DNA of 64,000 bases from Desulfurobacteriaceae bacterium (GTDB taxonomy: Bacteria > Aquificota > Aquificia > Desulfurobacteriales > Desulfurobacteriaceae), in contig JALUGO010000007.1 in the NCBI GenBank assembly GCA_027051905.1, positions 1 through 64,000 on the forward strand. The letters are read 5' to 3'. The notes under the pieces are model-generated. The model was given only the letters and a program-made list of their open reading frames with translations, made no database searches and was not told the DNA's origin. Below, in pieces: positions 1-64,000 of the stretch; within the stretch, counting starts at the first letter, position 1, and each line of letters starts with the position of its first letter. The position numbers and the translations under genes were made by a program.

Positions 1-75
1 AACAGCAAGGTGGTTCTCCTGCCGCCGTCTGTTGAGAGTTTGTTGGAGCTCCTTGGGAGGAAGCGTGAGTCTTAA
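1..75 (+). CDS. C-terminal tail of a slipin/stomatin-like (SPFH) protein, 5' truncated
   Basis: An open frame runs from the first base to TAA at 73-75 and encodes 24 residues ending LLGRKRES. No domain is visible in so short a tail. The family is inferred from context only: bacterial nfeD genes are very often preceded by and overlap a slipin gene, and here the stop lies inside the start of an nfeD gene (GTG at 65). The rest of the gene is outside the window. It could be another membrane-associated protein. Confidence 0.45.
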   Translation, partial: NSKVVLLPPSVESLLELLGRKRES

Positions 76-502
76 CCCGGGAGCTCTCTCTGTAATCGCC
101 GGCGTTCTTCTCCTCGTTGTAGAGGCTTTCGCCTTTACCTCTTACATCTTTCCTATAGGTATTGGCCTCATAGCTGCAGGGTTTGTCTATTTGATTTATC
201 CCTCTCTCTGGGTTTCACTTTTAACCTTTGTAGTTGTCTGTGCCTTTTTCTACTGGGTTTCCTTTAGGTATATAAAGAGGATAAAGGGAACCCGGGATAT
301 CTTAGAGGAGCTCTCCTCTCAGGAAGGGGTGGTTATAAAGAAGATTGATGACTTTACCTACGAAGTCCGGTTTCCCTTAGGAGCTGCTGGAGAGGAGGTG
401 TGGAACGCATATTCAGAGGAAGAGCTCCGCTACGGCGACAGGGTTAAGGTTGCTGGAATAAAGGGAAACAAGCTGATAGTTAAAAAGGTGGCAGATGCTT
501 AG
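65..502 (+). CDS. nfeD: NfeD-family membrane protein, short form
   Basis: This 145-residue protein has about three to four hydrophobic segments in residues 5-70, then a soluble C-terminal domain (about 75-145) rich in beta-strand sequence that matches the NfeD OB-fold. There is no N-terminal ClpP-like serine protease domain, so this is the short form normally paired with a slipin/SPFH protein at membrane microdomains. I prefer GTG at 65 because GGGAGG lies at 55-60; a TTG at 32 is also in frame. The start overlaps the end of the upstream partial gene, and the stop overlaps the ATG of alr at 495, so the three probably form one operon. Confidence 0.8.
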   Translation: MSLNPGALSVIAGVLLLVVEAFAFTSYIFPIGIGLIAAGFVYLIYPSLWVSLLTFVVVCAFFYWVSFRYIKRIKGTRDILEELSSQEGVVIKKIDDFTYEVRFPLGAAGEEVWNAYSEEELRYGDRVKVAGIKGNKLIVKKVADA

Positions 503-1583
503 GTGGGCTGAAGTTCACCTTGAAAGGCTCCTTTCAAACTACAGAACAGTTAAAAACTTATGCCAGAAGCAGGTTTACGCTGTTGTAAAGGCAAACGCTT
601 ACGGTCACGGAAGCAGAGAGGTTGCTTCATTCCTTGAGAAAAATACAGACGTTTACGGCTTTGCCGTTGCCACGTATGAGGAAGGAGCCTGTTTAAGGGA
701 AGCAGGCGTTAAGAGGCCGATTTTAGTTATGTCTTCAACCCTTGAGGAGGGAAGGGAGTTCCTGAAAGATTACGACCTCACTCCCGTTGTTTACGACTTT
801 ACGGAGCTCCGTCTTGCAAAAGAGTTAAACGTTCCTTTCCACTTAAAGGTTGATACGGGAATGGGAAGGTTGGGGTTTTTGGAGGAGGAATGGGGGGAGC
901 TCCTTTCAGAACTTAAAGGTCTTCCCGTTTCCGGCGTTATGACCCACTTTTCTTCGGCCGACGAAGATGAGGAGTTTACACTCTTTCAGCTTAAAAAATT
1001 TGAAAAGTTTGTATCCACTCTGAAAAAGGAATTTCCAAACATAGAAGTCCACGCAGAGAACAGCGCAGCAGCCCTCTACAGGTTCAACAACCTTTTAACC
1101 CACTGTAGAGTTGGCCTTGCGCTCTACGGCGTTCCCCCTGAAGAGGGGTATCCGGAGCTCCGTCAGGTTATGGAGGTGAAGGCAAAAGTTCTGACTGTAA
1201 AGGAGCTCCCGCCGAACTATCCTGTTTCCTACTCAAAAACCTACAGAACAAAGGGTAGAGAAAGAGTTGCAGTTATCAGCTTTGGATATGCAGACGGCTA
1301 CCCCAGGGAGTTCTCAAACAGAGGAAAGGTTCTGATAAAGGGAAAAATGTGCCCTGTAAGGGGTAGAGTCTGTATGGATATGACTGTTGTTTCAGTTGAA
1401 AGAATTGATGTAGAAAAAGGAGATATTGCAACTCTTTACGGAGAGGACATTACCTTTAAGTCCGTTGCTGAAAAGACGGGTAAAATTCCCTACGAGCTCA
1501 TGTGTTCAATAAGCCCGAGGGTTGAGAGGGTCTACTTTGGACTACAAAAGTGTAACGCTGAAAGTTCCGCAGGAACAGTTTGA
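495..1583 (+). CDS. alr: alanine racemase
   Basis: PLP-dependent interconversion of L- and D-alanine for peptidoglycan. The 362 residues match the usual family length. The PLP lysine is Lys32 in the motif AVVKANAYGHG, and the second catalytic residue, a tyrosine, lies in the SYSKTY segment near residue 250, just before RERVAVISFGYADGYPR. The N-terminal TIM barrel is followed by the beta domain with the RGRVCMDMT signature. It overlaps nfeD by 8 bases and prmA by 47 bases, so translation is likely coupled. The cytoplasmic cell-wall role fits mraY elsewhere in the window. Confidence 0.95.
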   Translation: MLRWAEVHLERLLSNYRTVKNLCQKQVYAVVKANAYGHGSREVASFLEKNTDVYGFAVATYEEGACLREAGVKRPILVMSSTLEEGREFLKDYDLTPVVYDFTELRLAKELNVPFHLKVDTGMGRLGFLEEEWGELLSELKGLPVSGVMTHFSSADEDEEFTLFQLKKFEKFVSTLKKEFPNIEVHAENSAAALYRFNNLLTHCRVGLALYGVPPEEGYPELRQVMEVKAKVLTVKELPPNYPVSYSKTYRTKGRERVAVISFGYADGYPREFSNRGKVLIKGKMCPVRGRVCMDMTVVSVERIDVEKGDIATLYGEDITFKSVAEKTGKIPYELMCSISPRVERVYFGLQKCNAESSAGTV

Positions 1584-2343: not shown

Positions 2344-3191
2344 ATCTCCACTGCCACTCAACGGCTTCAGACGGGACTCTAACTCCTTCAGAGTTGGTTG
2401 AGCTTGCATCAGAAAAAGGCATTTCCCACATAGCACTTACAGACCACGACACAGTTAGCGGTTTAGATGAGGCCATCTCAAAGGGAAAAAAATTAGGTGT
2501 AAACGTTATTCCCGGGATAGAGGTTACTGCCGATACCTCGTTTTTGGGGGAGGGGAAGAGGGAGCTCCACATCCTTGGTTACCACTTTGATCCCGACTCT
2601 GATGCTATGAGGCAATTGACGGAATTTTTCAGAAATTCTCGGATAAAAAGGAATAAGGAGCTCTGCGGAAGACTTGAAGAGCTTGGTTACCCTGTAAGCT
2701 ATGATGAGATGGTTAACCGCTATGGGGAGAACTTTGGGAAGCCCAACATAGCAAGGGTTTTGATTGATTCCGGATACTACTCAGACCGGGAAACTGCCAT
2801 AGACTTCCTCTCTTCTCTGGGGGTAAAGAGGGAGAAGATGGACTACCGTGAGATTTTCTCCCTGATAAGGGAAGCAGGAGGTATTCCGGTAGTGGCTCAT
2901 CCTGTAAGCATGAAGATTGAGTATGGGGAGCTCTACTATTTTCTTAGAAAAGCAAAAGAGGAAGGACTTGAAGGTGTAGAAGTTTACCATTATAGGCATA
3001 AACCTTCAGATGTTAGAATACTGATAGAGCTGGCGGAGGAAATTTCCCTTTGTACAACTGGTGGTTCAGATTTCCATGGAAAGAATAAACCATGTATACA
3101 GTTGGGTTTTCTAAACCTTACTGTAGGGGATATAACGTTACGGCTTGATTCGAGGTCTTCGGATGTTTCTGGCACGATAAGAAAACCTTAA
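2316..3191 (+). CDS. PHP-domain phosphoesterase (RNase AM / nucleoside 3',5'-bisphosphatase type)
   Basis: A 291-residue polymerase-and-histidinol-phosphatase fold protein. Metal-ligand motifs are visible in order: DLHCHSTASDGT at the N terminus, LTDHDT, GIEVT, VVAHP and GSDFHG near residue 250. This set and length match the YciV/TrpH group, which hydrolyses 3',5'-nucleoside bisphosphates and trims short RNA 5' ends. The exact substrate is inference. It overlaps prmA by 28 bases and is the last gene before the promoter of the nitrate-ammonification island. Confidence 0.8.
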   Translation: MDSFLVQKVDLHCHSTASDGTLTPSELVELASEKGISHIALTDHDTVSGLDEAISKGKKLGVNVIPGIEVTADTSFLGEGKRELHILGYHFDPDSDAMRQLTEFFRNSRIKRNKELCGRLEELGYPVSYDEMVNRYGENFGKPNIARVLIDSGYYSDRETAIDFLSSLGVKREKMDYREIFSLIREAGGIPVVAHPVSMKIEYGELYYFLRKAKEEGLEGVEVYHYRHKPSDVRILIELAEEISLCTTGGSDFHGKNKPCIQLGFLNLTVGDITLRLDSRSSDVSGTIRKP

Positions 3192-4675: not shown

Positions 4676-4700
4676 GGGGGAGCTCCGTCTCCCCCTTTTT
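4676..4700 (+). terminator. intrinsic terminator after the octaheme cytochrome gene
   Basis: Stem GGGGGAG (4676-4682) pairs with CTCCCCC (4689-4695) around a six-base loop and is followed by TTTTT at 4696-4700. It lies 16 bases after the cytochrome stop codon. It contains a GGAGCTCC octamer (4679-4686). Confidence 0.85.
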
Positions 4701-5630: not shown

Positions 5631-6123
5631 GTTTGTTCTGCCTTTACTTGTTTCTCTCTTTTTCATATCCTGTGGGGGAACCCAGCAGAGAGTTTCTATA
5701 AAACCTCTTCTTACCTCTCAACCATCACCTTTAGACAGGAAGATTTCAGGTGGGGGACCACAGGAGCTCCCCGTTTCTTCCCCCATTAACCCTGAAAAAC
5801 TTGACCTCTGCACTCGCCATATACTCTTTGCGGATCAGTATATTACAGCTTCAGATTATCCTGGAGCAGCTGAAGAGATAAAAGAGGCAGAAAAATACTG
5901 CTCTCCAGATGATCCCCGTCTTATCTACATGAAAGCAGTTCTTGCAGACATAAATGAAAATAAAAGTAAAGCATATAAACTCTACTACCGTGCTGCCAGG
6001 AAGTATATAGAAAAAGGGGACTTTGACAGTGCTTTTAAGTGTTACTCAGGTATGGTTTCTATAAATCCAGATGGGAAAGAAGTAAAAGAACTTAGAGTTT
6101 ACTTCGAGGATGATAACTATTGA
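5623..6123 (+). CDS. TPR-like lipoprotein of the hao-nap island
   Basis: A 166-residue protein with a lipoprotein signal peptide: a hydrophobic run followed by the lipobox FISC, with Cys near residue 17. After a Pro/Ser-rich linker, residues about 60-155 form helical pairs resembling two to three TPR repeats (YPGAAEEIKEAEKYC, DFDSAFKCYSGMVSINP). The ATG overlaps the end of the preceding TPR gene, so both proteins are probably made together. Membrane anchoring plus TPRs suggests a scaffold for the periplasmic electron-transfer proteins encoded around it. No named family recognised. Confidence 0.65.
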   Translation: MLRFVLPLLVSLFFISCGGTQQRVSIKPLLTSQPSPLDRKISGGGPQELPVSSPINPEKLDLCTRHILFADQYITASDYPGAAEEIKEAEKYCSPDDPRLIYMKAVLADINENKSKAYKLYYRAARKYIEKGDFDSAFKCYSGMVSINPDGKEVKELRVYFEDDNY

Positions 6124-7217: not shown

Positions 7218-9863
7218 ATGGGAATTGGAAGGAGAGAATTCCTCAAAAAGAGTGCTGCTCTAACAGCAGCATCTCTTGTGGGGATTAACCTTAAGATAAA
7301 AGGAGACGGAGTAACCCTTGGAGAGTCTGCATCTGCAGGCGAAAACCTTATGAGAATACCTGAAGAGGTTAAGAAGTCTCCCGCTTTTAAGAAGGAAGGG
7401 GGATATACCTGGGTAAGGGGTGTATGCCGTTTCTGCGGAACAGGTTGTAAGGTCTGGCTTGGTTTTAAAGATGGTAAGCCTGCAGTTATAAGGGGTGAGA
7501 AAAATTCTGCCATCAACTTTGGTTTTCTCTGTATGAAAGGAATGCTCTTTTACAAGATCTTCAGGCACCCAGACAGGCTTACACAGCCTCTCTACAGGAA
7601 GAGCAAGAAAGAGCCTTTCAAGCCAATTTCCTGGGAGAAGGCCTATGAGATTATTGCTGATGAGATGATCAAAGCTATTAAGAAGGGTGAGTGGACACCG
7701 TTTGGATGGTCTGGAATTGCCTACTACGGTTCCGGACAGGCTCTAACAGAGGAGACATACCTCTTCCAGAAGCTCTTCAGGTGTATCGGAACAAACCACG
7801 TTGAGGGTAACCCAAGGCTCTGTATGGCATCTGCAGTTGGCGGATACCTCACATCCTACGGAACAGACGAACCAGCTGGTGGATACGCAGACTTTGATAA
7901 AGCCCAAACAGTGTTCATCATCGGTTCAAACACTGCTGAGTGTCACCCGATCCTCTACCGTCGTATCATGCACAACAAGCTCAAGAATCCCGGCGGTTAC
8001 ATGGTAATTAACGTTGACCCCAGGGTATCTCCTACATCAAAGATTGCAGACATTCATATGCAGTTTAAGCCGGGAACAGACCTTGCTCTTCTTAACGCTA
8101 TCGCCCACGTAATTGTTAACGAGGGACTTTACGATAAGGAGTTTGTGAGCAAGTACTGTTCCTTCCATATCTTTACAAAGGGTAAGGATAAAGTTCCTCT
8201 TATTGGACACGAAGTTTCCTTTGAAGAGTATAAGAAGTTCCTCCAGAAATACACACCTGAGTATGCTGCCCAGATCTGTGGTGGAAACATCACGCCGGAG
8301 ATGATCCGTAAAGTTGCAAGGCGCTTTGCTACAACAAGAACTGTTTCCATCTGGACAATGGGTCTCAACCAGAGAACCCGTGGTGTATGGGTTAACAACC
8401 TCGTTACAAACCTCCACCTCTTAACAGGAAACATCTGTAAAGATGGTGCAGATGCCCTTTCACTTACAGGTCAGCCAAACGCCTGTGGTGGTGTTCGTGA
8501 AGGTGGTGGACTTTGTCACATCCTTCCAGGACACAGGGTTGTTAAGAGTAAAGCTGACAGGGAAAGCCTTGAGAAAATCTGGGGAGTGCCAAAAGGGACT
8601 ATTCCTCCAAAGCCTGGATACCACACTGTTAAGATGTTCTCCGCTATCTCTTACACAGAGCAGGACAGGAAGAGATTTCCAGGCCTCAAGCCTATCCATT
8701 TTATCTGGATTGAGGAAACCACACCGCTGCAGTCTCTCCCTAACGTTAGAAGGTTCCGTGAAGGATTTGCAAGGGATGACGTTTTCGTAGTTGTTAACGA
8801 GATATTCCCAACAAGGACAACAGAGTTTGCAAACCTGATTCTCCCAACACCGTTCCACTTTGAAAAGACAGGTGTTTACGGATGTACAGAACGTCGTTCA
8901 CAGTTAACTCCTGTTGCAGTTAAAGCTCCTGGCATGTGTAAGCCTGAACTCCAGATCATCGTTGAGTTTGCCCAGGTTCTTGCTAAGAAACTCAGAAGGG
9001 AGCGTGATCCGAAACTCCGTGCAAGGGCACACACTGTTTACCAGTGCGTAGCTCCGTTCATTGAAGCTGCCAAGAGAGACCCATGGTGGGAGCTCCCCAA
9101 AGCTGTTTGGACAGAGTATGCTCAGCATGTAACTAAAGGAAGAGACTCTACACTTGCCGGTGCTACATATGAAGTTCTTCTTGAAAGGCCAGACGGTGTT
9201 CAGTGGCCTGCACCAACTGTTGAAATTGCAAGGAAGGGAGGAACCCTTAGAAGGTTTGTTGTTGGGAAAGACCCACTTGCTACAGAGTTTGTCAAGAAGC
9301 ATGGACTTGAAGGCTGGAAAGTTGTTGACTACGGTCACCTCCATAAAGACCACAAGTTCTGGATCTGGCTCAGACCTTACAAGGGTCCTGCTGAGCCACC
9401 AGATGCTGAGTATCCGTTCTACCTGTCTACAGGTAGGGTTATTGATATGTGGCACTCCGGTTCTATGACTGGTCGTATCCCGGAGCTTGCCTCCGACTAT
9501 CCGTACGCCTGGGTTGAGATTAACCCGAAAGACGCTCAGCGTCTGGGTATCAATCCTGGTGATCTTGTCCTTGTTGAGACACGCCGTGGAAAGAACATCC
9601 TTCCCGCAAGGATCTCCACTGACGAAGGTCCGATGGAAGGAATGGTCTTCGTCTATTGGTACGACCAGCACAAGGACAGAATGATTAACTTCTGTACGCT
9701 TGACGCCTTTGACCCAGGCTCCAAGCAGCCTGAGTTCAAGATCTGTGCATGCCGCATCAAGAAATACGCTCCTGCTCAGCCACTCAAGCAATACCTCGTT
9801 AAGCTCGTCAAGGTTAAAGGTGGCTACCTTCACAACGCTGAACTCGATCCTAACCAGAAGTAA
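7218..9863 (+). CDS. napA: periplasmic nitrate reductase catalytic subunit
   Basis: Molybdenum bis-MGD enzyme reducing nitrate to nitrite. The N terminus carries a twin-arginine signal (GRREFLKK at residues 4-11). The [4Fe-4S] cysteines are in CRFCGTGCK (about 71-78) and GFLCMKG (about 105). The likely Mo-ligand cysteine is in the NPRLCMASA segment near residue 200. The 881 residues fit NapA with a few lineage insertions. It sits 14 bases after napM with an AAGGAGG site and ends at a strong terminator. NapD, encoded downstream, should bind the Tat signal, and TatA/TatC are encoded at 19.1-20.1 kb. Codon use resembles the octaheme gene and suggests strong expression. Confidence 0.95.
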   Translation: MGIGRREFLKKSAALTAASLVGINLKIKGDGVTLGESASAGENLMRIPEEVKKSPAFKKEGGYTWVRGVCRFCGTGCKVWLGFKDGKPAVIRGEKNSAINFGFLCMKGMLFYKIFRHPDRLTQPLYRKSKKEPFKPISWEKAYEIIADEMIKAIKKGEWTPFGWSGIAYYGSGQALTEETYLFQKLFRCIGTNHVEGNPRLCMASAVGGYLTSYGTDEPAGGYADFDKAQTVFIIGSNTAECHPILYRRIMHNKLKNPGGYMVINVDPRVSPTSKIADIHMQFKPGTDLALLNAIAHVIVNEGLYDKEFVSKYCSFHIFTKGKDKVPLIGHEVSFEEYKKFLQKYTPEYAAQICGGNITPEMIRKVARRFATTRTVSIWTMGLNQRTRGVWVNNLVTNLHLLTGNICKDGADALSLTGQPNACGGVREGGGLCHILPGHRVVKSKADRESLEKIWGVPKGTIPPKPGYHTVKMFSAISYTEQDRKRFPGLKPIHFIWIEETTPLQSLPNVRRFREGFARDDVFVVVNEIFPTRTTEFANLILPTPFHFEKTGVYGCTERRSQLTPVAVKAPGMCKPELQIIVEFAQVLAKKLRRERDPKLRARAHTVYQCVAPFIEAAKRDPWWELPKAVWTEYAQHVTKGRDSTLAGATYEVLLERPDGVQWPAPTVEIARKGGTLRRFVVGKDPLATEFVKKHGLEGWKVVDYGHLHKDHKFWIWLRPYKGPAEPPDAEYPFYLSTGRVIDMWHSGSMTGRIPELASDYPYAWVEINPKDAQRLGINPGDLVLVETRRGKNILPARISTDEGPMEGMVFVYWYDQHKDRMINFCTLDAFDPGSKQPEFKICACRIKKYAPAQPLKQYLVKLVKVKGGYLHNAELDPNQK

Positions 9864-9871
9864 TTTGTTTG

Positions 9872-12186: not shown

Positions 12187-12189
12187 GTT

Positions 12190-12894
12190 TTACGGGGGGA
12201 GTTCCCCCCTTACAAGCTTATATATCTCATAGATCCCTTCAAAAGTCAGGTTTTCTAAGAGTTTTCCCTCTACAATTTCTGAAATAGGTTTTCCATACCC
12301 TCCTGTTATAAACAGTGGAAGTTTAAACCTTTCTTTGACTTTATTTATCGCTCCTGTTGTGGCTGCTGTTATACCTGCCTTTATGCACTCCTCAGTTGAG
12401 TTTCCCGGTAATTCTTGAAGTTCCACTTCAACTTCTGGCAGGAGAGCTCCCTTTTTAAAGAGGCTCTCTGCCATTGTTTTAACTCCGGGTAGTATGTAGC
12501 CCCCTATAAACTCTTTTTTAACAACAACGTCTATAACTGTTGCTGTTCCGCAGTTTACAACGATGAAGCTGTTTGAATACTTTAATCCCCCTGCAATGCT
12601 GGCTATTCTGTCAGCCCCTAAGTTTCCTTTGTATGAGAGTTTAAAGGGAAGTTTCAGTTTCTGAGAGATAAAGAGAGCCCCAGGGTAAATCCTTCTGATT
12701 ATTTCTGTTGCTCCCGGAACAACTGAGGCTACAGCAACGTCTGAAGCGTTTATGGAGGGGAGCTCCCCTCTTTTTAAAACCTCAGCCGTTTCAAAGGAGA
12801 AAACAGGAACTATCTGGCCGTTTCTGTAGAGAGCTCCCTTAACTCGCGTATTTCCCGCATCTATCAGAAGAATACTATGTTCTATACTCTGCAT
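12190..12894 (-). CDS. coaX: type III pantothenate kinase
   Basis: First step of CoA synthesis: ATP-dependent phosphorylation of pantothenate. The 234-residue protein carries the type III signatures LLIDAGNTRVKG (phosphate loop, residues 9-20), KGNLGADRI near residue 92, and VVNCGTATVIDVV near 115, with a late ITGGYG motif. It is an ASKHA-fold enzyme unrelated to CoaA. It overlaps argJ by about 20 bases. Together with panE at 57.2 kb it covers part of the pantothenate/CoA route. Confidence 0.93.
   Translation of the reverse strand: MQSIEHSILLIDAGNTRVKGALYRNGQIVPVFSFETAEVLKRGELPSINASDVAVASVVPGATEIIRRIYPGALFISQKLKLPFKLSYKGNLGADRIASIAGGLKYSNSFIVVNCGTATVIDVVVKKEFIGGYILPGVKTMAESLFKKGALLPEVEVELQELPGNSTEECIKAGITAATTGAINKVKERFKLPLFITGGYGKPISEIVEGKLLENLTFEGIYEIYKLVRGELPP
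12194..12209 (+). terminator. hairpin at the convergent ends of the cytochrome gene and coaX
   Basis: GGGGGG (12194-12199) and CCCCCC (12204-12209) around a four-base loop, seven bases after the cytochrome stop. There is no U-tract, and the same bases encode the last codons of coaX (GELPP), so this is a weak call. Confidence 0.3.
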
Positions 12895-17070: not shown

Positions 17071-17446
17071 CAAAGTCCGGGATAAAGGGCTCAATTGCTT
17101 TTGTGAACTTTAAATCGGGCATTTCTGAAAGGAGCTCCGCCGCCGTCCTCAGGTTCAAGGAAACTATAAATGAATCTTCCCTTTCACTTACTTTAATAAA
17201 GGGTTTTTCCATGAAAATCCTGAAGAGCTCTTCTTTGTAGGATTTGTTCACTTTAAACGTAAAGACTGCGTGTTCAACAACCGAGAGGTGACCCATTCCG
17301 ACGACCCTCTCTATGAGGGCTCTGTCATCTTCTTCAGAGTAACGGGAGAGGAGCTCCTCAACCGGCAGCCCGGAGTAACAGACTCTGGCCGCCGTTGCAA
17401 TTACCTTCAGGTAGTCTTTTGTTGTGGAGAGGAGCTCCACACTCAT
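17054..17446 (-). CDS. ThyX-like protein lacking the ThyX signature
   Basis: A 130-residue protein whose first 72 residues match the N terminus of flavin-dependent thymidylate synthase: VIATAARVCYSG, then DDRALIERVVGMGHLSVVEHAVFTF, where the GH and EH residues normally contact FAD and dUMP. A normal ThyX then has RHRxxSxNExSxR and about 90 more residues; here the chain jumps to a short segment with SLNLRTAAELL, resembling the late NARSLxxFL motif. The core is therefore missing and thymidylate synthase activity is unlikely. It overlaps the rpmE stop by one base (TAATG), so it is translationally coupled and still expressed in frame. Confidence 0.6.
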   Translation of the reverse strand: MSVELLSTTKDYLKVIATAARVCYSGLPVEELLSRYSEEDDRALIERVVGMGHLSVVEHAVFTFKVNKSYKEELFRIFMEKPFIKVSEREDSFIVSLNLRTAAELLSEMPDLKFTKAIEPFIPDFVKPKG

Positions 17447-50017: not shown

Positions 50018-50666
50018 ACTCTTAGATTATCCCCGTGGAAATCCTGAAGAGGGGAAGAAGAGGTTTAACCTTCTTAACTCTTACGGGGTTCGGAATCTCT
50101 CTTTTGTCGCGAAAGGTTATCGGGGAATTGTTCTTAAAGGAGAGCTTTACGGTAAGCCGGTTGCGGTGAAGCTCCCCCGTTCTGACGTTCCCAAGCAGAA
50201 CCTTCCTGAGAAGGAGTGTGCCTTTTTGAAGCATCTCGATAAATGTTTAAAGGAAAAGAATCCCGCTCCTTCTCCTTTGCTGTGCACTTCCGATTTTTTA
50301 GTTGTGGAGTGGATAGAGGGGATTCCGCTTTCAAAGGCTTACAGAGTTTTCGGTAAACCCGTTATTCTCTTTGCCCTTGAAAGCTGTTACCTACTTGACT
50401 CCTGTGGCGTTGAGCACTCCGAAATAAAGGGAGAGAAACACCTAATCTATGACGGAAAGAGAGTCAGGATTATAGACTTTGAAAGCGCAAAGTTTAAAGA
50501 TAAGCCCAGGAACCTCCTTCAGTTTATCGGTTATCACATTCTCAGAAGAAAGGAGCTTTTAGAGGAGTTTGGTGTTGATAAAGGGGAGCTCCTTTCCCTT
50601 ATCGATCGATACAAGGAAAATCCGGCTGGGGTTTTCCCGAAAATAGTTGCTCTCTTTGACAAATAG
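49989..50666 (+). CDS. small Ser/Thr protein-kinase-like protein (archaeal COG2112 type)
   Basis: A 225-residue minimal kinase fold. The glycine-rich loop is [11 protein letters not shown] near 41-51 and the ATP lysine is in [10 protein letters not shown] near 60. [14 protein letters not shown] marks the hinge. The catalytic-loop equivalent reads [14 protein letters not shown] near 145 instead of HRD, and the metal-binding Asp is in [10 protein letters not shown] near 162. This pattern is typical of a predicted archaeal kinase group. The GVEHSEI replacement makes activity uncertain. It overlaps the unknown gene upstream and its end contains the -35 of the rpmH promoter. Confidence 0.7.
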
Positions 50667-51452: not shown

Positions 51453-52934
51453 ATGGGAGATAGGAACAACTCAAAGGCTTCAATTTTTCAGGCGATAATC
51501 CTTGCAGCTCTTGTCTTTTTTGGCTTTCAATTCTTCTTCGGGCATCACGAAGAAAAAGCTCAGGAATCGGGGAAAGCCCGGAAAGTTTCTGCCGTTAAAG
51601 TCGATATTCCTGCTTCAAAAGAGATAGGTCAGGTTGTAAAAGTTGAAACTCCCCTTTACACTGCTGAAATCTCAACGGTAAACGGTAAGCTGATAAGCCT
51701 CTACGTTAAGAAGTATAAGGCTCAGCTTGTCTCATCGGTTTCAAAGTCTATGGGTATCTATCCATTGATGACGGTTTCTGATGACCCCAAGTTAAGTGGG
51801 GAACTTGCCGGTCTTGAGCTTACTCCTAACGTTTTTTCTTTGAACATTAAGGATAAACCTGCCTCTCTGGTTCTCAGGGGGAAACTTTCAGACGGCAGAG
51901 AGTTTGTGAAAACCCTTACATTCTATCCAGACTCTTACAGGATAGACGTTTCAGTTTCCCTTGAGGGGGTAAAACTTGAGACGATAGTTGGTCCTGATAT
52001 AAAGGTAAACGAAGCCCACTCTTCCCGTATGGGGCATATAGGTCCCGTCCTTGAAACGGAGGAGAAGGTTGTAAGGCTTGAACCGAAGGGCATTCCCGGA
52101 TACCTCTCCTTCAGCAGAGTTCTATGGGCAGGAGAGGAGGATAAATACTTCCTGATGGCTGTTAAGGGAAGTGGCTTTTCTGCCGTTGTTGAGGCTGTTC
52201 CTCCAGACCATACCGTTGTGAGGAATTTGATTTCAAAGGTGATTTTCTACGGAGGTCCCAAGGAGCTCAATCAGCTTGAAAGCCTTGGAATGGACGCTGC
52301 CATCGATTTCGGAATATTCGGCTTTGCAGCAAAACCGTTTCTGAAGTTCTTCCTCTTCCTCCACAGGTTCATACCGGACTGGGGATTACTCATTATCGTC
52401 TTTACCCTCATTATCAAAATTCTCCTCCATCCCCTTACCCACAAGAGTTTTGTCTCTATGAAGAAGATGCAGGAGATAGCTCCAAAACTTGAGGACATTA
52501 AGAAGCGGTATGGAAACGATCCCCAGAAGCTCCAGGAAGAGACGATGAAGCTTTACAGGGAAGCCGGGGTAAACCCTGCCTCCGGCTGTCTGCCGATGCT
52601 CCTGCAGATTCCGATCTTCTTCATCCTCTACGAGATTTTCCTCAACGCAGTTGAGCTGAAGGGAGCTCCCTTCCTCTGGGTTCCTGATCTTTCTCAACCT
52701 GATCCCACCTACCTTCTGCCCATTCTTATGGGTCTTTCCATGATAGTTCAGCAGCTCTTTACTCCAACAACCAACGAGCAGCAAAAGAAAATTTTCATCG
52801 CTATCTCGGTAATTTTTACCTTTATGTTTGCCAGCTTTCCGGCGGGGCTTGTTCTCTACTGGCTCACAAACAACGTTATAACTGCTATCCAGAACTTTGT
52901 TATAAACAGACTGATGGAGAAAAGGGAAAGCTAA
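51453..52934 (+). CDS. yidC: membrane protein insertase YidC
   Basis: Inserts and folds inner-membrane proteins. 493 residues with an N-terminal helix (about 12-30), a large periplasmic beta-supersandwich (about 60-285) as in Gram-negative YidC, then the conserved five-helix core. Core motifs are DWGLLIIVFTLIIK, the coiled cytoplasmic loop KMQEIAPKLEDIKKRYGND, GCLPMLLQIPIFFILYEI and LYWLTNNVITAIQNF. Last gene of the rpmH operon before the CNNM genes, which start four bases later. Confidence 0.95.
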   Translation: MGDRNNSKASIFQAIILAALVFFGFQFFFGHHEEKAQESGKARKVSAVKVDIPASKEIGQVVKVETPLYTAEISTVNGKLISLYVKKYKAQLVSSVSKSMGIYPLMTVSDDPKLSGELAGLELTPNVFSLNIKDKPASLVLRGKLSDGREFVKTLTFYPDSYRIDVSVSLEGVKLETIVGPDIKVNEAHSSRMGHIGPVLETEEKVVRLEPKGIPGYLSFSRVLWAGEEDKYFLMAVKGSGFSAVVEAVPPDHTVVRNLISKVIFYGGPKELNQLESLGMDAAIDFGIFGFAAKPFLKFFLFLHRFIPDWGLLIIVFTLIIKILLHPLTHKSFVSMKKMQEIAPKLEDIKKRYGNDPQKLQEETMKLYREAGVNPASGCLPMLLQIPIFFILYEIFLNAVELKGAPFLWVPDLSQPDPTYLLPILMGLSMIVQQLFTPTTNEQQKKIFIAISVIFTFMFASFPAGLVLYWLTNNVITAIQNFVINRLMEKRES

Positions 52935-52937: not shown

Positions 52938-54200
52938 ATGGAAACGGAGAGTTTAACCGTTTACTACATCCTCCTTCCTCTTCTTATTCTTCTCTCTGCT
53001 CTCTTTTCGGCCTCTGAAACGGCCTTTTTCTCCCTCAACCTTTTAAGGCTTGAGAGGCTGGCAAAGGAAGGGAACAGAAAAGCTGAGGAGATACTCCACT
53101 TCCTCCAGAGACCTGCCGAGCTGATAGCTACAATTCTCATTGGAAACGAAATGGTAAACGTTGCCATAGCTTCAACCTCGGCAGTCCTCTTTGTAAAGCT
53201 CCTTGGAGAAGAGGGAGCTCCCCTCTCCGTTCCTGTTACCGTAATTACTCTTCTCATCTTCGGTGAGGTTACTCCCAAAACTCTGGCAATAAAGTTCAGT
53301 GAACGTTATGCATTCTTTATCTTCCCTTTTCTCAAGTTTGTAAGCAGAGTTCTGACCCCTTTTCGGAAAGTGCTTGTTGGTTTTGCCTCTTTAGTTCTTA
53401 AACCCTTTGGTGTTGAGCTGTTCAGCAAACCTAAAGCCATGACCGACGAGGAGTTCATGATCCTGGTTTCTGAAGGGGCAAAGGAGGGAACGATAGGAGA
53501 GGAGGAGGTTGAGCTTATAGACAGAACCCTTGACCTTGGAGAGATGGACGTCAGGGAGGTGATGGTTCCCAAACACAGAGTCTTTGCCCTTCCTGAAGAT
53601 ATGAAATTAAAAGATGCCCTTGAAGTTCTTAAAAAGGTAAGGTTTTCAAGGATTCCAATTTATAAAGATTCGCTGGATCAGGTTACGGGAATACTCTACA
53701 CCAGAAGGATTATCCCATTGAGGTTTAAGTCTGAAGACTTTGAAAAGCCCATCAGGGATTTTGCCGATAAGCCCTTCTTCGTTACGGAGTTTTTAACGTT
53801 AGACGACCTTCTGGATCAGATGCAGAGAACCCGCCGTCACATGGCTGTTGTTGTTGATGAGTATGGAAACACTGCAGGTGTTGTAACCCTTGACGATGTT
53901 CTTAGGGAGATTGTCGGGGAGCTCCCCGACGAAAAAGAGGTCTGTGGGGACTTTGAGAGGTTGTCGGAGAAAACCTTCAGACTCTCGGGTGAGATTCCCG
54001 TTGAAGAGCTAAAGGAGCTCCTCTGCCTTTCAGACGACGAGATTCTGAAAGAGGTTGATACAGTTTCAGGCCTGATTATGGCTCTTCTCAAGAAAATCCC
54101 CGATGAGGGGGATTCCGTAGAGTATCAGGGATACAGGTTTACCGTTGAGAGGAAAGAGGGTAACAGAGTTAAGTCCGTTGTCGTTGAGAGGGTAGAGTAA
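52938..54200 (+). CDS. CNNM/CorC-family transporter-like protein, copy 1
   Basis: 420 residues: DUF21/CNNM transmembrane domain (about 1-180, LLILLSALFSASETAFFSLNLLRLERL), a CBS pair (about 200-325, MVPKHRVFALPEDM and AVVVDEYGNTAGVVTLDDVLREIVG) and a C-terminal CorC_HlyC domain (about 335-420). Such proteins export Mg2+ or Co2+, or exchange Na+ for Mg2+. The stop overlaps the ATG of a paralogue with the same layout. Confidence 0.9.
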   Translation: METESLTVYYILLPLLILLSALFSASETAFFSLNLLRLERLAKEGNRKAEEILHFLQRPAELIATILIGNEMVNVAIASTSAVLFVKLLGEEGAPLSVPVTVITLLIFGEVTPKTLAIKFSERYAFFIFPFLKFVSRVLTPFRKVLVGFASLVLKPFGVELFSKPKAMTDEEFMILVSEGAKEGTIGEEEVELIDRTLDLGEMDVREVMVPKHRVFALPEDMKLKDALEVLKKVRFSRIPIYKDSLDQVTGILYTRRIIPLRFKSEDFEKPIRDFADKPFFVTEFLTLDDLLDQMQRTRRHMAVVVDEYGNTAGVVTLDDVLREIVGELPDEKEVCGDFERLSEKTFRLSGEIPVEELKELLCLSDDEILKEVDTVSGLIMALLKKIPDEGDSVEYQGYRFTVERKEGNRVKSVVVERVE

Positions 54201-55450
54201 TGGAGATCTGGCCTCTCCTTCTGATTTTCCTCTGTACTCTCTCTGAGGGGTTCTTTTCCGGAAGCGAGATCGCCATCGTTTCTCTCCCAAAACTTGAGCT
54301 TCAGAAGAGGCTACAGGCTGGTGACGGCAGGGCTAAACTCCTTGCGGAGCTCCTTAAGGAGCCAGAGAAACTCCTGACGACCACCCTTGTGGGAACAAAC
54401 CTTTCTACGGTAACTGGTTCCACAATCTTCGCCACCTATATAATGGACAACATCGTTCGGGTTTTTCCCTCCCTTGCCGGCTACCCGGAGCTCATTACCG
54501 TCCTCTGTTTTACGCCTTTAACCCTTACCTTCGGGGAGCTGATCCCAAAGAGTTTATTTCAGAAGTATTCCCACGTTGTCGCATTTAAGATTGTCTATCC
54601 CATCTATTTCTTCTACCTGCTTTTCAAGCCTGTTTCTTTTGCGGTTATAGGGTTTTCAAGGTTCATTGCCCACGTTTTGAAAGCAGAGGGAGAGGGAAAC
54701 CCCTTTGTTACCAAGGAGGAGCTGAAACTTCTCCTTGAGAGCAGCTCCAGGTTCCAGGTGGAAAAAACCGAGAGGAACATACTGAAAAACGTTCTTCAGC
54801 TAAAGGAAAAGAGCGTTGGAGACATTTACACTCCCCTGTCTCAGGTTATGGCCGTTAGTGAGAACGCTTCTGTTCTTGAGGCTCTTGAGCTTATGGATAA
54901 AAGTGGTTTTTCAAAACTTCCCGTGTTCGAGGGAAGAGTGGACAACATAGTGGGCTACGTTCTCGTTTCAGACCTTATCTCCGTCAATAATCCTAACTTG
55001 AGGGTTAGAGAGATTATGCGCCCGGTTGTTGTTCTACCTGAGTATATGAACATCTTTAACGCACTAAAAGAGTTTAAGAAAAATCGGGAGCAGATGGGGA
55101 TAGTTGTTGATGAGTTTGGCTCTACCCTCGGCATAGTGACCATTGAGGATATTTTAGAGGAGATTGTTGGAAGGATTGAGGATGAATTTGACAGGAATAC
55201 TCAAAACGTAATCAGAGAGGGGAAAGAGGTTGTAGCTGATGCTTCAGTTGAAGTTGAGGAGTTAAACAAGTTTTTAAAGAAGCCTCTTCCAGAGAACTCC
55301 GATTACGTTAGCCTTGGTGGTTTGATACTTTCAAAGCTTGGAAGATTCCCAAAGAGAGGAGAGGTGGTGGAGTTCCCCAACCACGTTCTGACTGTTGAAG
55401 ATGTTGATAGAAAAAGAATTAAAAGAGTTAGAGTGAGGGAGAAAAGTTAA
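54200..55450 (+). CDS. CNNM/CorC-family transporter-like protein, copy 2
   Basis: 416 residues with the same order as the preceding gene: CNNM membrane domain (SEGFFSGSEIAIVSLPKLELQKR), CBS pair (EYMNIFNALKEFKKNREQMGIVVDEFGSTLGIVTIEDIL is the second CBS region), CorC_HlyC end. Sequence divergence from copy 1 is large, so the duplication is old and the pair may form a heterodimer. It converges with the thioredoxin-like gene, overlapping by four bases. Confidence 0.9.
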   Translation: MEIWPLLLIFLCTLSEGFFSGSEIAIVSLPKLELQKRLQAGDGRAKLLAELLKEPEKLLTTTLVGTNLSTVTGSTIFATYIMDNIVRVFPSLAGYPELITVLCFTPLTLTFGELIPKSLFQKYSHVVAFKIVYPIYFFYLLFKPVSFAVIGFSRFIAHVLKAEGEGNPFVTKEELKLLLESSSRFQVEKTERNILKNVLQLKEKSVGDIYTPLSQVMAVSENASVLEALELMDKSGFSKLPVFEGRVDNIVGYVLVSDLISVNNPNLRVREIMRPVVVLPEYMNIFNALKEFKKNREQMGIVVDEFGSTLGIVTIEDILEEIVGRIEDEFDRNTQNVIREGKEVVADASVEVEELNKFLKKPLPENSDYVSLGGLILSKLGRFPKRGEVVEFPNHVLTVEDVDRKRIKRVRVREKS

Positions 55451-58208: not shown

Positions 58209-58232
58209 AAAGGGAGGGAGCTCCCTCCCTTT
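58209..58232 (-). terminator. perfect 24-base palindrome after ilvD
   Basis: A 12-base-pair perfect inverted repeat with no loop bases, reading AAAGGGAGGGAG then its complement, centred on GAGCTC. It starts two bases after the ilvD stop, before panE. A short T-run closes the stem on the minus strand. It is a probable terminator or RNA-stability hairpin. Confidence 0.55.
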
Positions 58233-58233: not shown

Positions 58234-59886
58234 TTAAACGTCCTGAATGGCACCTTTTGCTGCAGAGGTTACGAGCTTTGCGTATTTTCTGAGGAGTTTT
58301 GACTTAATCTCCTTCTGCTTCGGCCTGAACTCAGAGAGCCTCTTTTTAAGTTCATCTTCACTTATGAGGAGCTCAAGCTTCCTCTCTGGAACGTTTATGT
58401 GGATCTTATCTCCGTCTCTAACAACTCCTATGGGGCCTCCTTCGGCTGCTTCAGGGGAGATGTGGCCTATACAGGGGCCATGGGTTCCGCCGGAGAACCT
58501 TCCGTCTGTTATGAGGGCAACAGACTCTCCCAGCCCCATTCCCATAACGGCTGCCGTAACTGCAAGCATCTCCCTCATTCCGGGGCCACCCTTTGGCCCT
58601 TCATACCTTATCACTATCACATCTCCTGCTTTTATCTGGCCTTCCATAACGGCCTTCATTGCGTCTTCCTCACAGTCAAAGACCCTGGCCGTTCCTGTAA
58701 AGACCTTCATCTTGTCTGAAACGGCTCCCTGCTTGATTACGGCTCCGTCCGGTGCCAAGTTGCCGTAAAGAATTGCAATTCCACCTTCGGGGCTGTATGG
58801 ATTGTCTATCGGCCTTATAACGTCGTTGTCCCATATCCTTGCAGCCGCTGCAATCTCTTTTATGTCTGTTCCTAAAACCGTTGGATTGCTTTCCAACTTT
58901 TCAAAGAGCCTGTTCATAACTCCCGGAATACCGCCTGCGTAGTGGAGGTCTTCCATCAAATACTTGCCACCGGGTCTCATTGAGCAGATTTTGGGAGTTT
59001 CTCTGCTGAGCTCGTCAAATAGCTTTATCTCAAAGGGAACTCCCGCCTCATGGGCAATTGCCGGCAGGTGGAGAACTGTGTTGGTTGAACCTCCTAAGGC
59101 CAGGTCAACCCTTATGGCGTTCCTGAAGGCTGCAGGGGTAAGAATGTCCCTTGCTTTTACTCCCTTCTTAACCAGCTCAACTATCTTCTCTCCGGAGGCT
59201 TCGGCGATTCTCTTCTTCTCTGCCAGCGGTGCAGGTGAAGTTCCACAGTAGGGTAGAGACATTCCCAGGGCTTCTGTTAAACAGGCCATTGTGTTTGCTG
59301 TAAACATTCCTTGGCAGGCTCCAGAAGAGGGGCATGCTGCTCCCTCAAGCTCAAGGAGCTCCTCTAAAGTTATCTCCCCTGCCTTATACCTACCAATTGC
59401 CTCAAATGTATGTGTAACGAGGTCTAACCTCTCCTTTCCTCTCCTTCCCGCAAGCATGGGACCGGCGGTTACAACTATTGCCGGAATGTTTACCCTTGCT
59501 GCTCCCATTAGCATTCCGGGGGTTATCTTGTCACAGGCAGTTAGAAGAACTATTCCGTCAAGCTGGTGGGCTGTGACAACGTCTTCAACGGCGTCTGCAA
59601 TCAGCTCCCTCAAGGGGAGTGAGAACCTCATCCCTTCGTGTCCCATCGCTATGCCATCGCAAATGGCGGGAACACGAACGATAAAGGGAGTTCCCCCTGC
59701 AGCTGCAACTCCTCTCTCTATGAACCTTTCAAGTGAGAACATGTCGGCGTGGCCGGGAACAAGGTCTGTCCAACTTGAGATAATTCCAATGAGCGGTTTT
59801 TCGATGTCTTTCCTCTGGAGCCCTGTTGCCATCATGAGGGCTCTTGCCGGAAGCTTTTCAAACTCCCTGAGAACATCACTTCTCAT
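58234..59886 (-). CDS. ilvD: dihydroxy-acid dehydratase
   Basis: Fe-S enzyme for the third common step of valine and isoleucine synthesis. 550 residues. Cluster cysteines are in [16 protein letters not shown] near 115, [17 protein letters not shown] near 192-208, and an earlier Cys in [16 protein letters not shown] near 50. The C-terminal [19 protein letters not shown] motif near 465-482 contains the catalytic Ser. It overlaps the small DUF465-like gene upstream by 11 bases. Confidence 0.96.
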
Positions 59887-60121: not shown

Positions 60122-60559
60122 CTAAAGATTGAGTTTCAATATTAAAGCGTGGTCGTTTCTGTAGTAGTTCTTTCTCTCTGAAACTTTTGAAAAACCAAGG
60201 TGTTTGTAGAGTGAAATAGCTCTGTAATTTTTCTCGTTTACTTCGAGAATTGCCTCTTTTGCTCCTCTCTCCCTGGCAATTTTGAAGAGTGTTTTAAGGA
60301 GCTCCCTTCCTATACCCATTCCCTGGAGCTCTCTCTTAACCCCTATCCTGTGGATTTCGCAGGTTTCCCCTATCAACCAGGCAAGGCAGTAGCCTGCAAC
60401 TTCTCCGTCGAGCTTTGCAGTAAGACCAAGTGAAAAGGGTAGTTTCAACTCTTTCCTCAGCGTCTCTTCTGAGTAGGGGTCTTCAAAGAGCTCCCTCTCT
60501 AACTTAAGTATATCCGATAGTTCTTTCTCTTTAAAGTTCTCTACACTGAGGTTTTGCAT
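60122..60559 (-). CDS. rimI: ribosomal-protein-alanine N-acetyltransferase RimI-like
   Basis: A 145-residue GNAT acetyltransferase. Acetyl-CoA loop GVKRELQGMGIGRELL near 75-88 (Q-x-x-G-x-G), then EAILEVNEKNYRAISLYKHLGF near 100-120 with the late catalytic tyrosine. It acetylates the N terminus of S18 or similar proteins. The start overlaps tsaB by 29 bases, a common tsaB-rimI pairing. Confidence 0.88.
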   Translation of the reverse strand: MQNLSVENFKEKELSDILKLERELFEDPYSEETLRKELKLPFSLGLTAKLDGEVAGYCLAWLIGETCEIHRIGVKRELQGMGIGRELLKTLFKIARERGAKEAILEVNEKNYRAISLYKHLGFSKVSERKNYYRNDHALILKLNL

Positions 60560-61139
60560 CGTGGTCTCTTACGTAGTGGAATGTCAGGGGCGAGAGTTCC
60601 TCAGGGGGAATCAGGAGGAGCTTTGCTGAGAGGGGAACTCTCTCCTGAATAGCAGGAAGTTGTGAGAGTTCCGGGGGGAGCTCCCCCTTGTAAACGATCA
60701 GCAGGTTTTTAACCTCTTTGACTTCTGAGAGGAGCTCTTCCGGCGGAATATCGACCTCTTTTCCGTGGAGTTCCGCATAAACCCTTCCCCTCCTTGCCGG
60801 TATAACGGGAATGGGCGTGAGCTTGAGCCTTTCGTATCCGGTTTTCAGTGCCTTCAGCGTTGTTGCCGAAAAAACCTTAATTCCACACTCCTTAAATGCC
60901 TTTCCGATGGAGACAGAGAGTCTTACTCCTGTAAAGGAGCCGGGGCCAGACGATACAACAACCTCTTCAACTTCCTTTTTGCTTACGCCGGCAAGTGAAA
61001 AGGCTTTTTCGATCTGAGAAAAGATCACTTCTGCATGGAGCTTAGGGCGGTTCCAGCAGATGGAAGAGATTACCTCTCCGTTAACCTCCACAGAGACGCT
61101 TCCTTCGGGAAGAGAAAGGTCAACTCCTAACCTTGTCAT
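60531..61139 (-). CDS. tsaB: tRNA threonylcarbamoyladenosine biosynthesis protein TsaB
   Basis: Partner of TsaD in making t6A37 of tRNA. A 202-residue ASKHA-fold protein with the diagnostic VVVSSGPGSFTGVRLSVSIGKA near 61-82 and an N-terminal LGVDLSLPEGSVSV strand. HAEVIFSQIEKAF near 34-46 is the dimer helix. The ATG overlaps the stop of the PsiE-like gene (ATGA). Confidence 0.93.
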   Translation of the reverse strand: MTRLGVDLSLPEGSVSVEVNGEVISSICWNRPKLHAEVIFSQIEKAFSLAGVSKKEVEEVVVSSGPGSFTGVRLSVSIGKAFKECGIKVFSATTLKALKTGYERLKLTPIPVIPARRGRVYAELHGKEVDIPPEELLSEVKEVKNLLIVYKGELPPELSQLPAIQERVPLSAKLLLIPPEELSPLTFHYVRDHDAKPQCREL

Positions 61140-61789: not shown

Positions 61790-62553
61790 ACTCCCATCCC
61801 TCCCAGATACCAGTTTATCAAAACGTCTCCAAAGAAGAGGGCGATGAGAGCTCCAGCAGACAGAAATGGACCAAAGGGCAGTGGGTTTTCTTTACTCTTA
61901 TTTTTAAGGAGTATGAGCCCAATTCCCACAACGGCTCCAACGAACGATGCTGCAAAGAGGTTAAGCAAAACCTTTTTCCATCCAAGGAAGGCTCCTACGA
62001 CGGCCATTATGTTGGCATCGCCGTATCCCATACCCTCCTTTCCCGTAAAGACGTAGTAGCTCTCAATTATGAAGAGGATTACTCCAGCTCCAAAGGAAGC
62101 TCCGAAAACGGCCTCCTTAAAGGAGTGTTCCGGAACGAAGAAAGAGAGAAAAAGCCCTGAGAGGAGAGTTCCGTAGCTGAGCCTTACGGGAACTTCCATC
62201 GTTTTGAGGTCTATGAACGAAACAACTATCAAATAGTAGATGAGCAGCAGGTAGTAAAAGGAAGAGAAACTCAGCCCGAACCTGCAAACGGTAGCAGCCG
62301 TTAAGAGGCCGGTAAGGAGCTCCACCACCGGATACTGCCAGCTTATCCTCTCTCCACAACTTCTACACTTTCCCTTCAATATCAGGTAGCTGATAACAGG
62401 GATGTTGTCGTAGGGTTTTATGGGGCTCCCGCACTTCGGGCAGTGTGATGGCGGCCAGACGACGGACTTCCCTTCAGGAATTCTGTAAATACAGACGTTG
62501 AGGAAACTCCCGATGAAGAGACCCAGAACGAACAAGATGAGGCAGATTCCCAT
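61786..62553 (-). CDS. pilD: prepilin peptidase / N-methyltransferase
   Basis: Inner-membrane aspartyl protease that cuts and methylates type IV prepilins or pseudopilins. 255 residues, about eight hydrophobic segments. The zinc-type cysteine pairs CPKCGSP and CRSCGER near 38-66 belong to the methyltransferase part. Catalytic Asp residues are in FIDLKTMEVP near 123 and in the GMGYGDANIMA (GxGD) motif near 175. It overlaps its neighbours by one to four bases. Confidence 0.93.
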   Translation of the reverse strand: MGICLILFVLGLFIGSFLNVCIYRIPEGKSVVWPPSHCPKCGSPIKPYDNIPVISYLILKGKCRSCGERISWQYPVVELLTGLLTAATVCRFGLSFSSFYYLLLIYYLIVVSFIDLKTMEVPVRLSYGTLLSGLFLSFFVPEHSFKEAVFGASFGAGVILFIIESYYVFTGKEGMGYGDANIMAVVGAFLGWKKVLLNLFAASFVGAVVGIGLILLKNKSKENPLPFGPFLSAGALIALFFGDVLINWYLGGMGV

Positions 62554-63179
62554 TAGTGGGTCTCCTTGGGAGCGGACTTAACGAACTGGACGAGGTTCCT
62601 CAGGAAGGCCGACCACTTCTCAACCGCCGATTTAACGTCTGTCTGAAGAACCTTAAGGGCTTCTTCTTCCTTCCCTTCATACATAAGGTCGTCTAACCTG
62701 AAAACGGCGTCTTCAAGTTTTGCTATCTCCTCGTCTATTCCCTCGTAGAGGGGGAGAATACGGGAACCGGTGTCAACCAGTTTCACAGTCCAGTCTAAAG
62801 AGTCAAGGAGATTGTGGAGCATAAGTTTTGCAAGCTCCGGTTTTGTGTGCCAGTCGGAGACTATCTGATCAATGGCATTTCTCATACCCTCCAGTGCCAC
62901 AAGGGCCAGCTCTATCTGCTTCCTTACCATGTTCTGTGCTGGTTCCGTGACGATGTTGAGCTCCTCAACGTTTTTTATTTCGTCAACTTTTGCAGGATGG
63001 AGCTTCTCTCCCTTCATCTCCACGTATTTAATTGAACGTTCGGGGAACAGGTAGCGATACTCTATGAGCCTTAAAAGTCCTGTTGTAGAGGTTCCTTCTG
63101 CCTCTCTTCCCACTTCAAGCTCAACCGGTTTCCCGTCAATCTTTACCCTTACCTTTCTCTTTCCCCGTGACGTTCTCAA
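62553..63179 (-). CDS. uncharacterised protein upstream of prepilin peptidase
   Basis: 208 residues, no signal peptide. The N-terminal 70 residues have strand-rich sequence (VRVKIDGKPVELEVGREAEG, SIKYVEMKGEKL). Residues about 80-208 are predicted to be long helices (QIELALVALEGMRNAIDQIVSDW, LDWTVKLVDTGSRILPLYEGIDEEIAKLEDAV are read as helices). I do not recognise the family. It shares 44 bases with the upstream unknown gene, so the two probably work together; a pilus or motility link is suggested only by the downstream pilD. Confidence 0.6.
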   Translation of the reverse strand: MRTSRGKRKVRVKIDGKPVELEVGREAEGTSTTGLLRLIEYRYLFPERSIKYVEMKGEKLHPAKVDEIKNVEELNIVTEPAQNMVRKQIELALVALEGMRNAIDQIVSDWHTKPELAKLMLHNLLDSLDWTVKLVDTGSRILPLYEGIDEEIAKLEDAVFRLDDLMYEGKEEEALKVLQTDVKSAVEKWSAFLRNLVQFVKSAPKETH

Positions 63180-64000
63180 AGAGCACCTCCAGAGCTCTCT
63201 CTTTTGTGAGTTTTATAGCTTCTTTCCTTCCCACAAATAGAGATGAGAGGAATCGCAGGAGTTTCTCATCTCCCAGGGGAAATTTAATCCTCTGGACTGC
63301 TTTAACAATTGCTGTTGCTTCCCTTTCAACCTGCTGGACGGTATCGTATCTGTAAGAGAGGGCTTCCCTCAGGGCATCTAAAACCTCTATCTGCTCTTCC
63401 TTCAGGCCGTTGATCAGGGGAATTTCGGAGTGGTATTTGAGGAGCTCCCCCGCCCTTGCAAGGGCGTTTCCCCTCATATAGCCAAGTCCCCTGACGCTTC
63501 CAAGGAGGGAAAATCTGAAAGGAATTCCGCTTCTAACCATCATAACCGCCCTGTGGACGGTTTCAAAGTCGAAAATGTTGAGTTTGCAGAGGAGCTGACC
63601 CAAAAGGGAGCTCTCCGGCGGTAGCGTTGAGAGCTCCCCCGGCGGCCTCGCAACGTTCTTAAAGGGGAAAAAACCTCCTTCTGCGTAGAATGCTAAGACC
63701 TCAAAGTTGTCGTCTCCACTGAGTCCCGTCTTTTCCTCAACCGTTTCGAGAAGTTTCTCCGCCTCCCTCAAAAACCCCTCACCTGTAAACACGCTTACGC
63801 TTTTTGGGTTCAGTTCCTTCCTTAAGAAAGGTCTCAGAACGAAACTATAACCCACGGTTGGGTTTTCCTCTAAAAGGGTTTCAGAGGCGTTGAGCCTTTT
63901 TCGGAACTCCGAGAAACAGTAGGGGGAGACGAAAGAGGAAACCAGGAGTTTTGTAAGCTGTGTCGGCTCTGTTCCCTCTAAAAAGCCCATCTCCTGGAGC
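63136..64000 (-). CDS. uncharacterised protein, probably 5' truncated by the window edge
   Basis: At least 284 residues. An ATG at 63990 is in frame, but the frame is open to the window edge (codons for L-Q-E precede it) and a Shine-Dalgarno at normal spacing is lacking, so the true start may be outside. The sequence is mixed helical, with an LLGSVRGLGYMRGNALARAGELL segment near 160-185 and a Lys/Gly-rich C-terminal tail. No family recognised. Confidence 0.55.
   Translation of the reverse strand, partial: LQEMGFLEGTEPTQLTKLLVSSFVSPYCFSEFRKRLNASETLLEENPTVGYSFVLRPFLRKELNPKSVSVFTGEGFLREAEKLLETVEEKTGLSGDDNFEVLAFYAEGGFFPFKNVARPPGELSTLPPESSLLGQLLCKLNIFDFETVHRAVMMVRSGIPFRFSLLGSVRGLGYMRGNALARAGELLKYHSEIPLINGLKEEQIEVLDALREALSYRYDTVQQVEREATAIVKAVQRIKFPLGDEKLLRFLSSLFVGRKEAIKLTKERALEVLFENVTGKEKGKGKD

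Follow-up and report, generated by a model that had tools for sequence, protein, structure and literature searches.

Introduction

The first 64,000 nucleotides of contig JALUGO010000007.1, from a heat-loving deep-sea Desulfurobacteriaceae bacterium (assembly GCA_027051905.1; this whole stretch is hereafter the window), carry the palindromic octamer GGAGCTCC dozens of times, and the question raised by this locus is what could fill a genome with such a word. Highly iterated palindromes (HIPs) have been discussed since HIP1 was described in 1995, and the cause of palindrome-filled genomes has been open since. Our tentative answer, held with somewhat less than even confidence, is that the octamer belongs to a genome-wide self-recognition motif, RGAGCTCY (R, purine; Y, pyrimidine), which would be read by a putative DNA-binding protein, with DNA uptake or recombination as its likeliest use.

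Abundance of the octamer and independence from codon usage

A first-pass annotation of the window had counted at least 48 copies of GGAGCTCC where about one was expected. There are exactly 48 (Table 1), whereas 100 dinucleotide shuffles give a mean of 1.61 and at most 5. No other octamer is as frequent in the window; the second-ranking octameric palindrome, AGAGCTCT, reaches 12 copies, a quarter as many, and the control palindromes of the same composition do not approach its abundance, as GGTGCACC, GGTCGACC and GGACGTCC have no copy in the window genes. The whole genome (G000; 1,364,638 bases) harbors 870 copies versus nine of the reversed word CCTCGAGG, a density of 638 per Mb that falls within the range of about 500-2500 per Mb typical of HIPs, and G002 presents 1451 copies in about 1.6 Mb; in this bacterium and its relatives, the word recurs about every 1-1.5 kb. 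For the YidC protein of G000, the closest named relatives are those of Thermovibrio and of Desulfurobacteriaceae MAGs. A Markov model of order 6, the maximal order, expects 42.6 copies in the window, near the observed count, but this test is uninformative because the 7-mer sub-word GAGCTCC already carries the excess. The over-representation of GGAGCTCC is real and is confirmed here.

Codon bias alone had been thought insufficient to produce the word, and this holds. The window genes contain 43 copies. When synonymous codons are permuted gene by gene, 4.6 ± 1.9 remain (maximum 10), and when the dinucleotides across codon boundaries are preserved as well, 7.4 ± 2.4 (maximum 14); these two shuffles rule out a codon or dipeptide artefact. 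Similarly, the genes of G003 carry 62 copies against 6.1 under the codon null. As first described, many coding copies encode Glu-Leu (38 of the 43, in the frame xxG GAG CTC C) and others are read as GGA GCT CC (four), the last being in another frame. The remaining five window sites are non-coding by our gene calls. Among the copies previously placed between genes, those at 22905, 27192 and 58217 are indeed non-coding and the one at 58217 does lie at the center of a true 24-base palindrome, whereas the one at 4679 falls at a gene boundary, outside the five non-coding calls.

Over 124 kb of G000, coding and non-coding DNA are equally dense in sites (91 copies in 113.8 kb and 10 in 10.9 kb, respectively). 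Convergent, divergent and co-directional intergenic regions hardly differ (0.93, 0.80 and 0.77 per kb in six genomes of the genus), so that the word is part of neither a terminator nor a promoter. GC content was also rejected as a cause, since G018 (0.49 in the sample) lacks the excess and G003 (0.41) has it. The spacing had been called uneven, with no site in 9097-12758 or 33269-39945, but the coefficient of variation of the gaps is 1.00 versus 1.00 ± 0.09 under random placement; inter-site distances are random in G000 and in nearly all other genomes tested, and the site-free stretches are thus due to chance. The excess of GGAGCTCC is a property of the DNA itself and depends on neither codons nor strand nor the surrounding genes.

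Motif definition and retention of sites

The enrichment of variants over an order-2 model was computed on 638 kb from six species of the genus, with some sampled regions overlapping. GGAGCTCC reaches 14.7-fold, AGAGCTCC/GGAGCTCT 5.0-fold and AGAGCTCT 2.8-fold, and the central purine/pyrimidine variants GGAACTCC and GGAATTCC reach 2.1- and 3.2-fold, whereas C or T at position 1 brings no enrichment (0.9-1.0-fold). Other one-mismatch forms are near chance at position 2 (0.9-1.6-fold) and depleted at positions 3-4 (0.2-0.5-fold); the early remark that such forms are frequent applies to the end purine and the central purine/pyrimidine changes only. Purines also precede the word, at -1 in 74% and at -2 in 82% of sites. 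The motif is RGAGCTCY with a purine extension, best as GGAGCTCC, and is more than the palindrome alone. Its graded tolerance and purine-rich extension look like those of a protein-binding site.

The motif is conserved in related genomes. In the relatives G002-G005 (81-83% DNA identity), 57-81% of GGAGCTCC sites are intact versus 22-26% of other octamers. A codon-matched test, restricted to in-frame octamers for which both encoded amino acids are conserved, gave 23 of 26 sites kept against 136 of 441 other octamers in G002, 20 of 25 against 162 of 587 in G003, 12 of 15 against 77 of 282 in G004, and 19 of 23 against 103 of 428 in G005 (p values between 6e-5 and 5e-9). In each of the four close comparisons, retention of the Leu codon CTC is higher inside sites (91/96 versus 780/1366 outside, summed over these four overlapping comparisons); for the Glu codon GAG it is significantly higher in two of them. 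Given this retention, with which the codon-matched CTC test agrees, the sites are actively maintained in the face of substitution among close relatives. Once identity drops to about 73% (G001, G018 and G019), retention is near background, yet G001 and G019 are still site-rich: abundance is maintained while individual positions turn over.

Distribution and dialect switch in Thermovibrio ammonificans

GGAGCTCC is strong in three genera of Desulfurobacteriaceae, with whole-genome counts of 683-1451 in g1, 457-787 in g6 and 327-1257 in g7, compared to 44-169 in g2 and 4-17 in g3, g4 and g5. Among 136 genomes of the phylum, none outside the family exceeds 176 copies except one with 407. That genome (G065; family f3, genus g14; 1.2 Mb) has genus mates with 14-176 copies and possibly represents an independent gain. 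The reversed control CCTCGAGG itself occurs 150-374 times per genome in several members of f3 and f5 (G029, G044, G130 and others), where it may owe its frequency to codon usage or be a further iterated palindrome. Our literature search found no paper containing GGAGCTCC as a word and no report of a motif of this kind in Thermovibrio or Desulfurobacterium.

The small contig of G018 matches plasmid NC_014917.1 at 100% identity, which identifies this genome as T. ammonificans HB-1. It sits in g7 with G019-G021, which bear the palindrome, but presents only 13 GGAGCTCC against 16.6 under its codon null, that is, no excess, whereas G019 and G021 exceed their own. Its genes exhibit GAGCTTC/GAAGCTC 502 times versus 148 under the codon null in 250 kb, GAGCTTC is frequent in non-coding DNA as well, and RGAGCTTC totals 2177 copies genome-wide, on both chromosome and plasmid, compared to roughly 175-460 in palindrome-bearing relatives. 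When the word is extended to a palindrome, GAAGCTTC, no enrichment is seen (3 versus 10). The word has no gene-strand bias and no replichore bias (233 versus 243 relative to GC skew), and its genome totals by orientation are balanced (1091 versus 1086). T. ammonificans is therefore a case of dialect switch, from the palindrome to the asymmetric RGAGCTTC. GAGCTCC has become GAGCTTC in G018 at 8 of 88 sites as seen from G000 and at 10 of 98 as seen from G002, versus 0-3 of 72-94 in other genomes at a similar distance, which suggests partial conversion of sites in place. In G015, GAGCTTC is also in excess, though less so (162 versus 62).

Some further observations concern this and other words. 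The conjugation-type plasmid stretch of T. ammonificans (G018:C1, L039) carries 3.5 GAGCTTC per kb against 1.8 per kb on the chromosome. G013 (g4) harbors an unrelated asymmetric word, AAAATCCCC, 42 times versus 3.5 under the codon null in 183 kb of genes; it is C-rich downstream and is also found in non-coding DNA (loci L034, L100-L102 and L210-L215). CTTTAAAG (about 2-5-fold over the codon null) and CCTTGCAA (3-5-fold where listed) are in excess in many family genomes (G000, G005, G008, G017, G018, G019 and G021), independently of the GGAGCTCC dialect. AGAGCTTG is mildly over-represented in G009 and G011 of g3 (43 versus 13 and 36 versus 12), possibly a weak third dialect.

Proposed self-recognition role and competing explanations

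We propose that a putative sequence-specific DNA-handling protein reads RGAGCTCY as a label of self DNA. The motif would most likely serve natural transformation by favoring the uptake or recombination of DNA from kin, as DNA uptake sequences (DUS) do. Uptake or recombination bias would supply the drive for motif accumulation, and a reader that changed specificity could account for the dialect switch in T. ammonificans. We favor this explanation because the dialect change, the density of about one motif per kb and the lack of strand bias resemble DUS. Indeed, the DUS of Neisseriaceae (PMC3630211) and the uptake signal sequences (USS) of Pasteurellaceae (PMC1939737) also occur about once per kb without strand bias and vary between related species, as do GGAGCTCC and RGAGCTTC within g7. 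The gene for the competence channel ComEC is present in all 16 near-complete family genomes.

Several points weigh against self-recognition through uptake. ComEC is also encoded by family members without the motif and thus is not diagnostic. Palindromy is not a feature of classical uptake sequences (PMC1939737), whereas the motif is palindromic in g1 and g6 and asymmetric only in T. ammonificans and, more weakly, in G015. Unlike DUS and USS, it is equally dense in coding and non-coding DNA and randomly spaced. Mobile elements of Neisseria have atypical DUS distributions (PMC7371117), whereas the one element considered here, the first 20 kb of NC_014917.1, is richer in GAGCTTC (66 versus 15.4) than the chromosome (436 versus 130.5). 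Moreover, the gain in GAG retention is not significant in G003 (p = 0.08) and G004 (p = 1.0), nor is in-place conversion in G018 when compared to other GAGCTT words (28/153 versus 13/119, p = 0.12). That the hydrothermal-vent Desulfurobacteriaceae add a third lineage to those carrying DNA uptake (self-recognition) sequences, the word being palindromic in most motif-rich genomes and switched to an asymmetric form in T. ammonificans, is possible but doubtful.

Alternatively, an abundant nucleoid protein could bind RGAGCTCY genome-wide as a chromosome-architecture site, with selection keeping the sites. The even occurrence in coding and non-coding DNA, the graded purine/pyrimidine tolerance and the presence of the dialect on a plasmid would all suit such a putative binder. 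Against it, spacing is random instead of regular, and single sites are replaced once divergence exceeds about 25%. We consider this role unlikely, and dialect switching together with the absence of strand bias makes us lean towards a self-recognition tag.

The first-pass annotation also likened the word to HIP1 and suggested a methylation target. The former is right as regards anatomy: an octamer at 0.4-1 per kb, genic and intergenic, conserved, and replaced in a cousin. Like HIP1 (GCGATCGC) and the alternate HIPs that replace it in some cyanobacterial relatives, GGAGCTCC is a GC-rich octameric palindrome in a range of about 0.5-2.5 per kb with common end-position variants (PMC4390886), and its excess, present in genes as well as between them, is not accounted for by codon usage. 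In the model of Elhai, a methyltransferase for the site is required, acting through G-meC and methylation-directed mismatch repair (PMC4390886). Here, an orphan methyltransferase on GAGCTC/RGAGCTCY would allow such repair to ratchet the word up; the palindrome, its frequency near 1 per kb, the tolerance at its ends and a central GC that could carry G-meC agree with this scheme, and MutL is encoded in all 22 family genomes. Being universal, MutL does not track the motif and was rejected as a correlate, as was a type IIG-like enzyme found in both motif-rich and motif-poor genomes. Among five Pfam families (C5, N4/N6, D12, HsdM and Eco57I-type; other families were not searched) in these 22 genomes, no methyltransferase family is common to the motif-rich ones. 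C5 enzymes are absent from g1 and g6 and the other families form a patchwork; the enzyme of G000 is CcrM-like, and G003 (99% complete, 1309 GGAGCTCC) has a type I HsdM as its sole methyltransferase among the five. HIP1 resists deviation at positions 4/5, whereas here a purine/pyrimidine change is enriched fivefold at positions 1/8 and central changes appear to be tolerated as well (GGAACTCC and GGAATTCC), and the replacement word of T. ammonificans is asymmetric. With no shared methyltransferase family, methylation of GGAGCTCC is not supported, enzymes outside the five families being possible; we hold an HIP1-type origin to be less likely still than an architectural role.

A neutral mutation or repair bias, for instance very-short-patch-like correction to GAGCTC, could yield a functionless word with both retention and excess, and the depleted one-off forms together with the purine/pyrimidine excess could reflect its substrate preference. 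However, it would need an eight-base context with end tolerance and a change of this context in one species, and we give it slightly less credit than the methylation-based scheme. A Chi-like recombination hotspot for a RecBCD/AddAB-type nuclease is improbable: Chi sites, too, are typically short over-represented words that vary from species to species, and GAAGCTC of T. ammonificans has a Chi-like length, but the main form is palindromic and the lack of orientation bias reported above disfavors such a role. Finally, codon or dipeptide usage has virtually no chance of having made the word, since, despite the prevalent Glu-Leu frame, codon shuffling recovers a tenth of the copies, non-coding DNA is as dense in sites as coding DNA, and T. 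ammonificans matches its codon null where its genus mates exceed theirs.

Sites in the window

Table 1. The 48 sites of GGAGCTCC in the window, all exact matches; a site is called intact where the octamer is kept in the aligned relative (G001-G005, G018, G019).
Site	Position	Strand	Context	Relatives
1	45..52	.		
2	803..810	.		
3	896..903	.		intact G002
4	1154..1161	.		intact G002
5	1202..1209	.		
6	2561..2568	.		intact G002
7	4679..4686	.	gene boundary	intact G002
8	5763..5770	.		intact G002, G003
9	9089..9096	.		
10	12759..12766	.		intact G002, G003
11	14749..14756	.		intact G002, G003, G005
12	14968..14975	.		intact G002, G003, G005
13	16446..16453	.		intact G002-G005
14	16536..16543	.		intact G004 only
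15	17131..17138	.		intact G002, G003
16	17350..17357	.		intact G001-G005
17	17431..17438	.		intact G002-G005
18	19417..19424	.		intact G002-G005
19	19444..19451	.		intact G002-G005
20	22905..22912	.	non-coding, between convergent genes	intact G004, G005
21	24313..24320	.		intact G002-G005
22	24421..24428	.		intact G002, G003, G005
23	25346..25353	.	non-coding by our gene calls	
24	27032..27039	.		intact G003, G004
25	27192..27199	.	non-coding, divergent intergenic	intact G004
26	29729..29736	.	non-coding	intact G002-G005
27	30559..30566	.		intact G002-G005
28	33261..33268	.		intact G002-G005
29	39946..39953	.		intact G002-G005
30	40984..40991	.		intact G001-G005, G019
31	43092..43099	.	frame GGA GCT CC (first-pass annotation)	intact G002-G004
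32	44319..44326	.		intact G002, G003, G005
33	45997..46004	.	frame GGA GCT CC (first-pass annotation)	intact G001-G005
34	47003..47010	.		intact G002
35	47399..47406	.		intact G002, G005
36	49283..49290	.		intact G003, G005
37	50585..50592	.		intact G005, G018
38	52662..52669	.	frame GGA GCT CC (first-pass annotation)	not kept in G003, G005
39	53214..53221	.	frame GGA GCT CC (first-pass annotation)	not kept in G003, G005
40	53918..53925	.		intact G003, G005
41	54014..54021	.		
42	54346..54353	.		
43	58217..58224	.	non-coding, center of 24-base palindrome AAAGGGAGGGAGCTCCCTCCCTTT	
44	59355..59362	.		
45	60298..60305	.		
46	60677..60684	.		intact G003
47	62316..62323	.		
48	63441..63448	.		

Significance

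Highly iterated motifs are a known class, and what appears new here is the switch from a palindrome to an asymmetric word without a detected cognate methyltransferase. The Desulfurobacteriaceae provide an independent case of an iterated palindrome, in the small genomes of cultivable vent bacteria, and the methyltransferase needed by the leading HIP1 model was not detected among the families searched. Since the dialect switched naturally within a single genus, T. ammonificans can be set against its motif-bearing relatives, which puts the question within direct reach of experiment. Should the family prove to be a third lineage with uptake sequences, these and the HIP1-like palindromes may be two forms of the same phenomenon.

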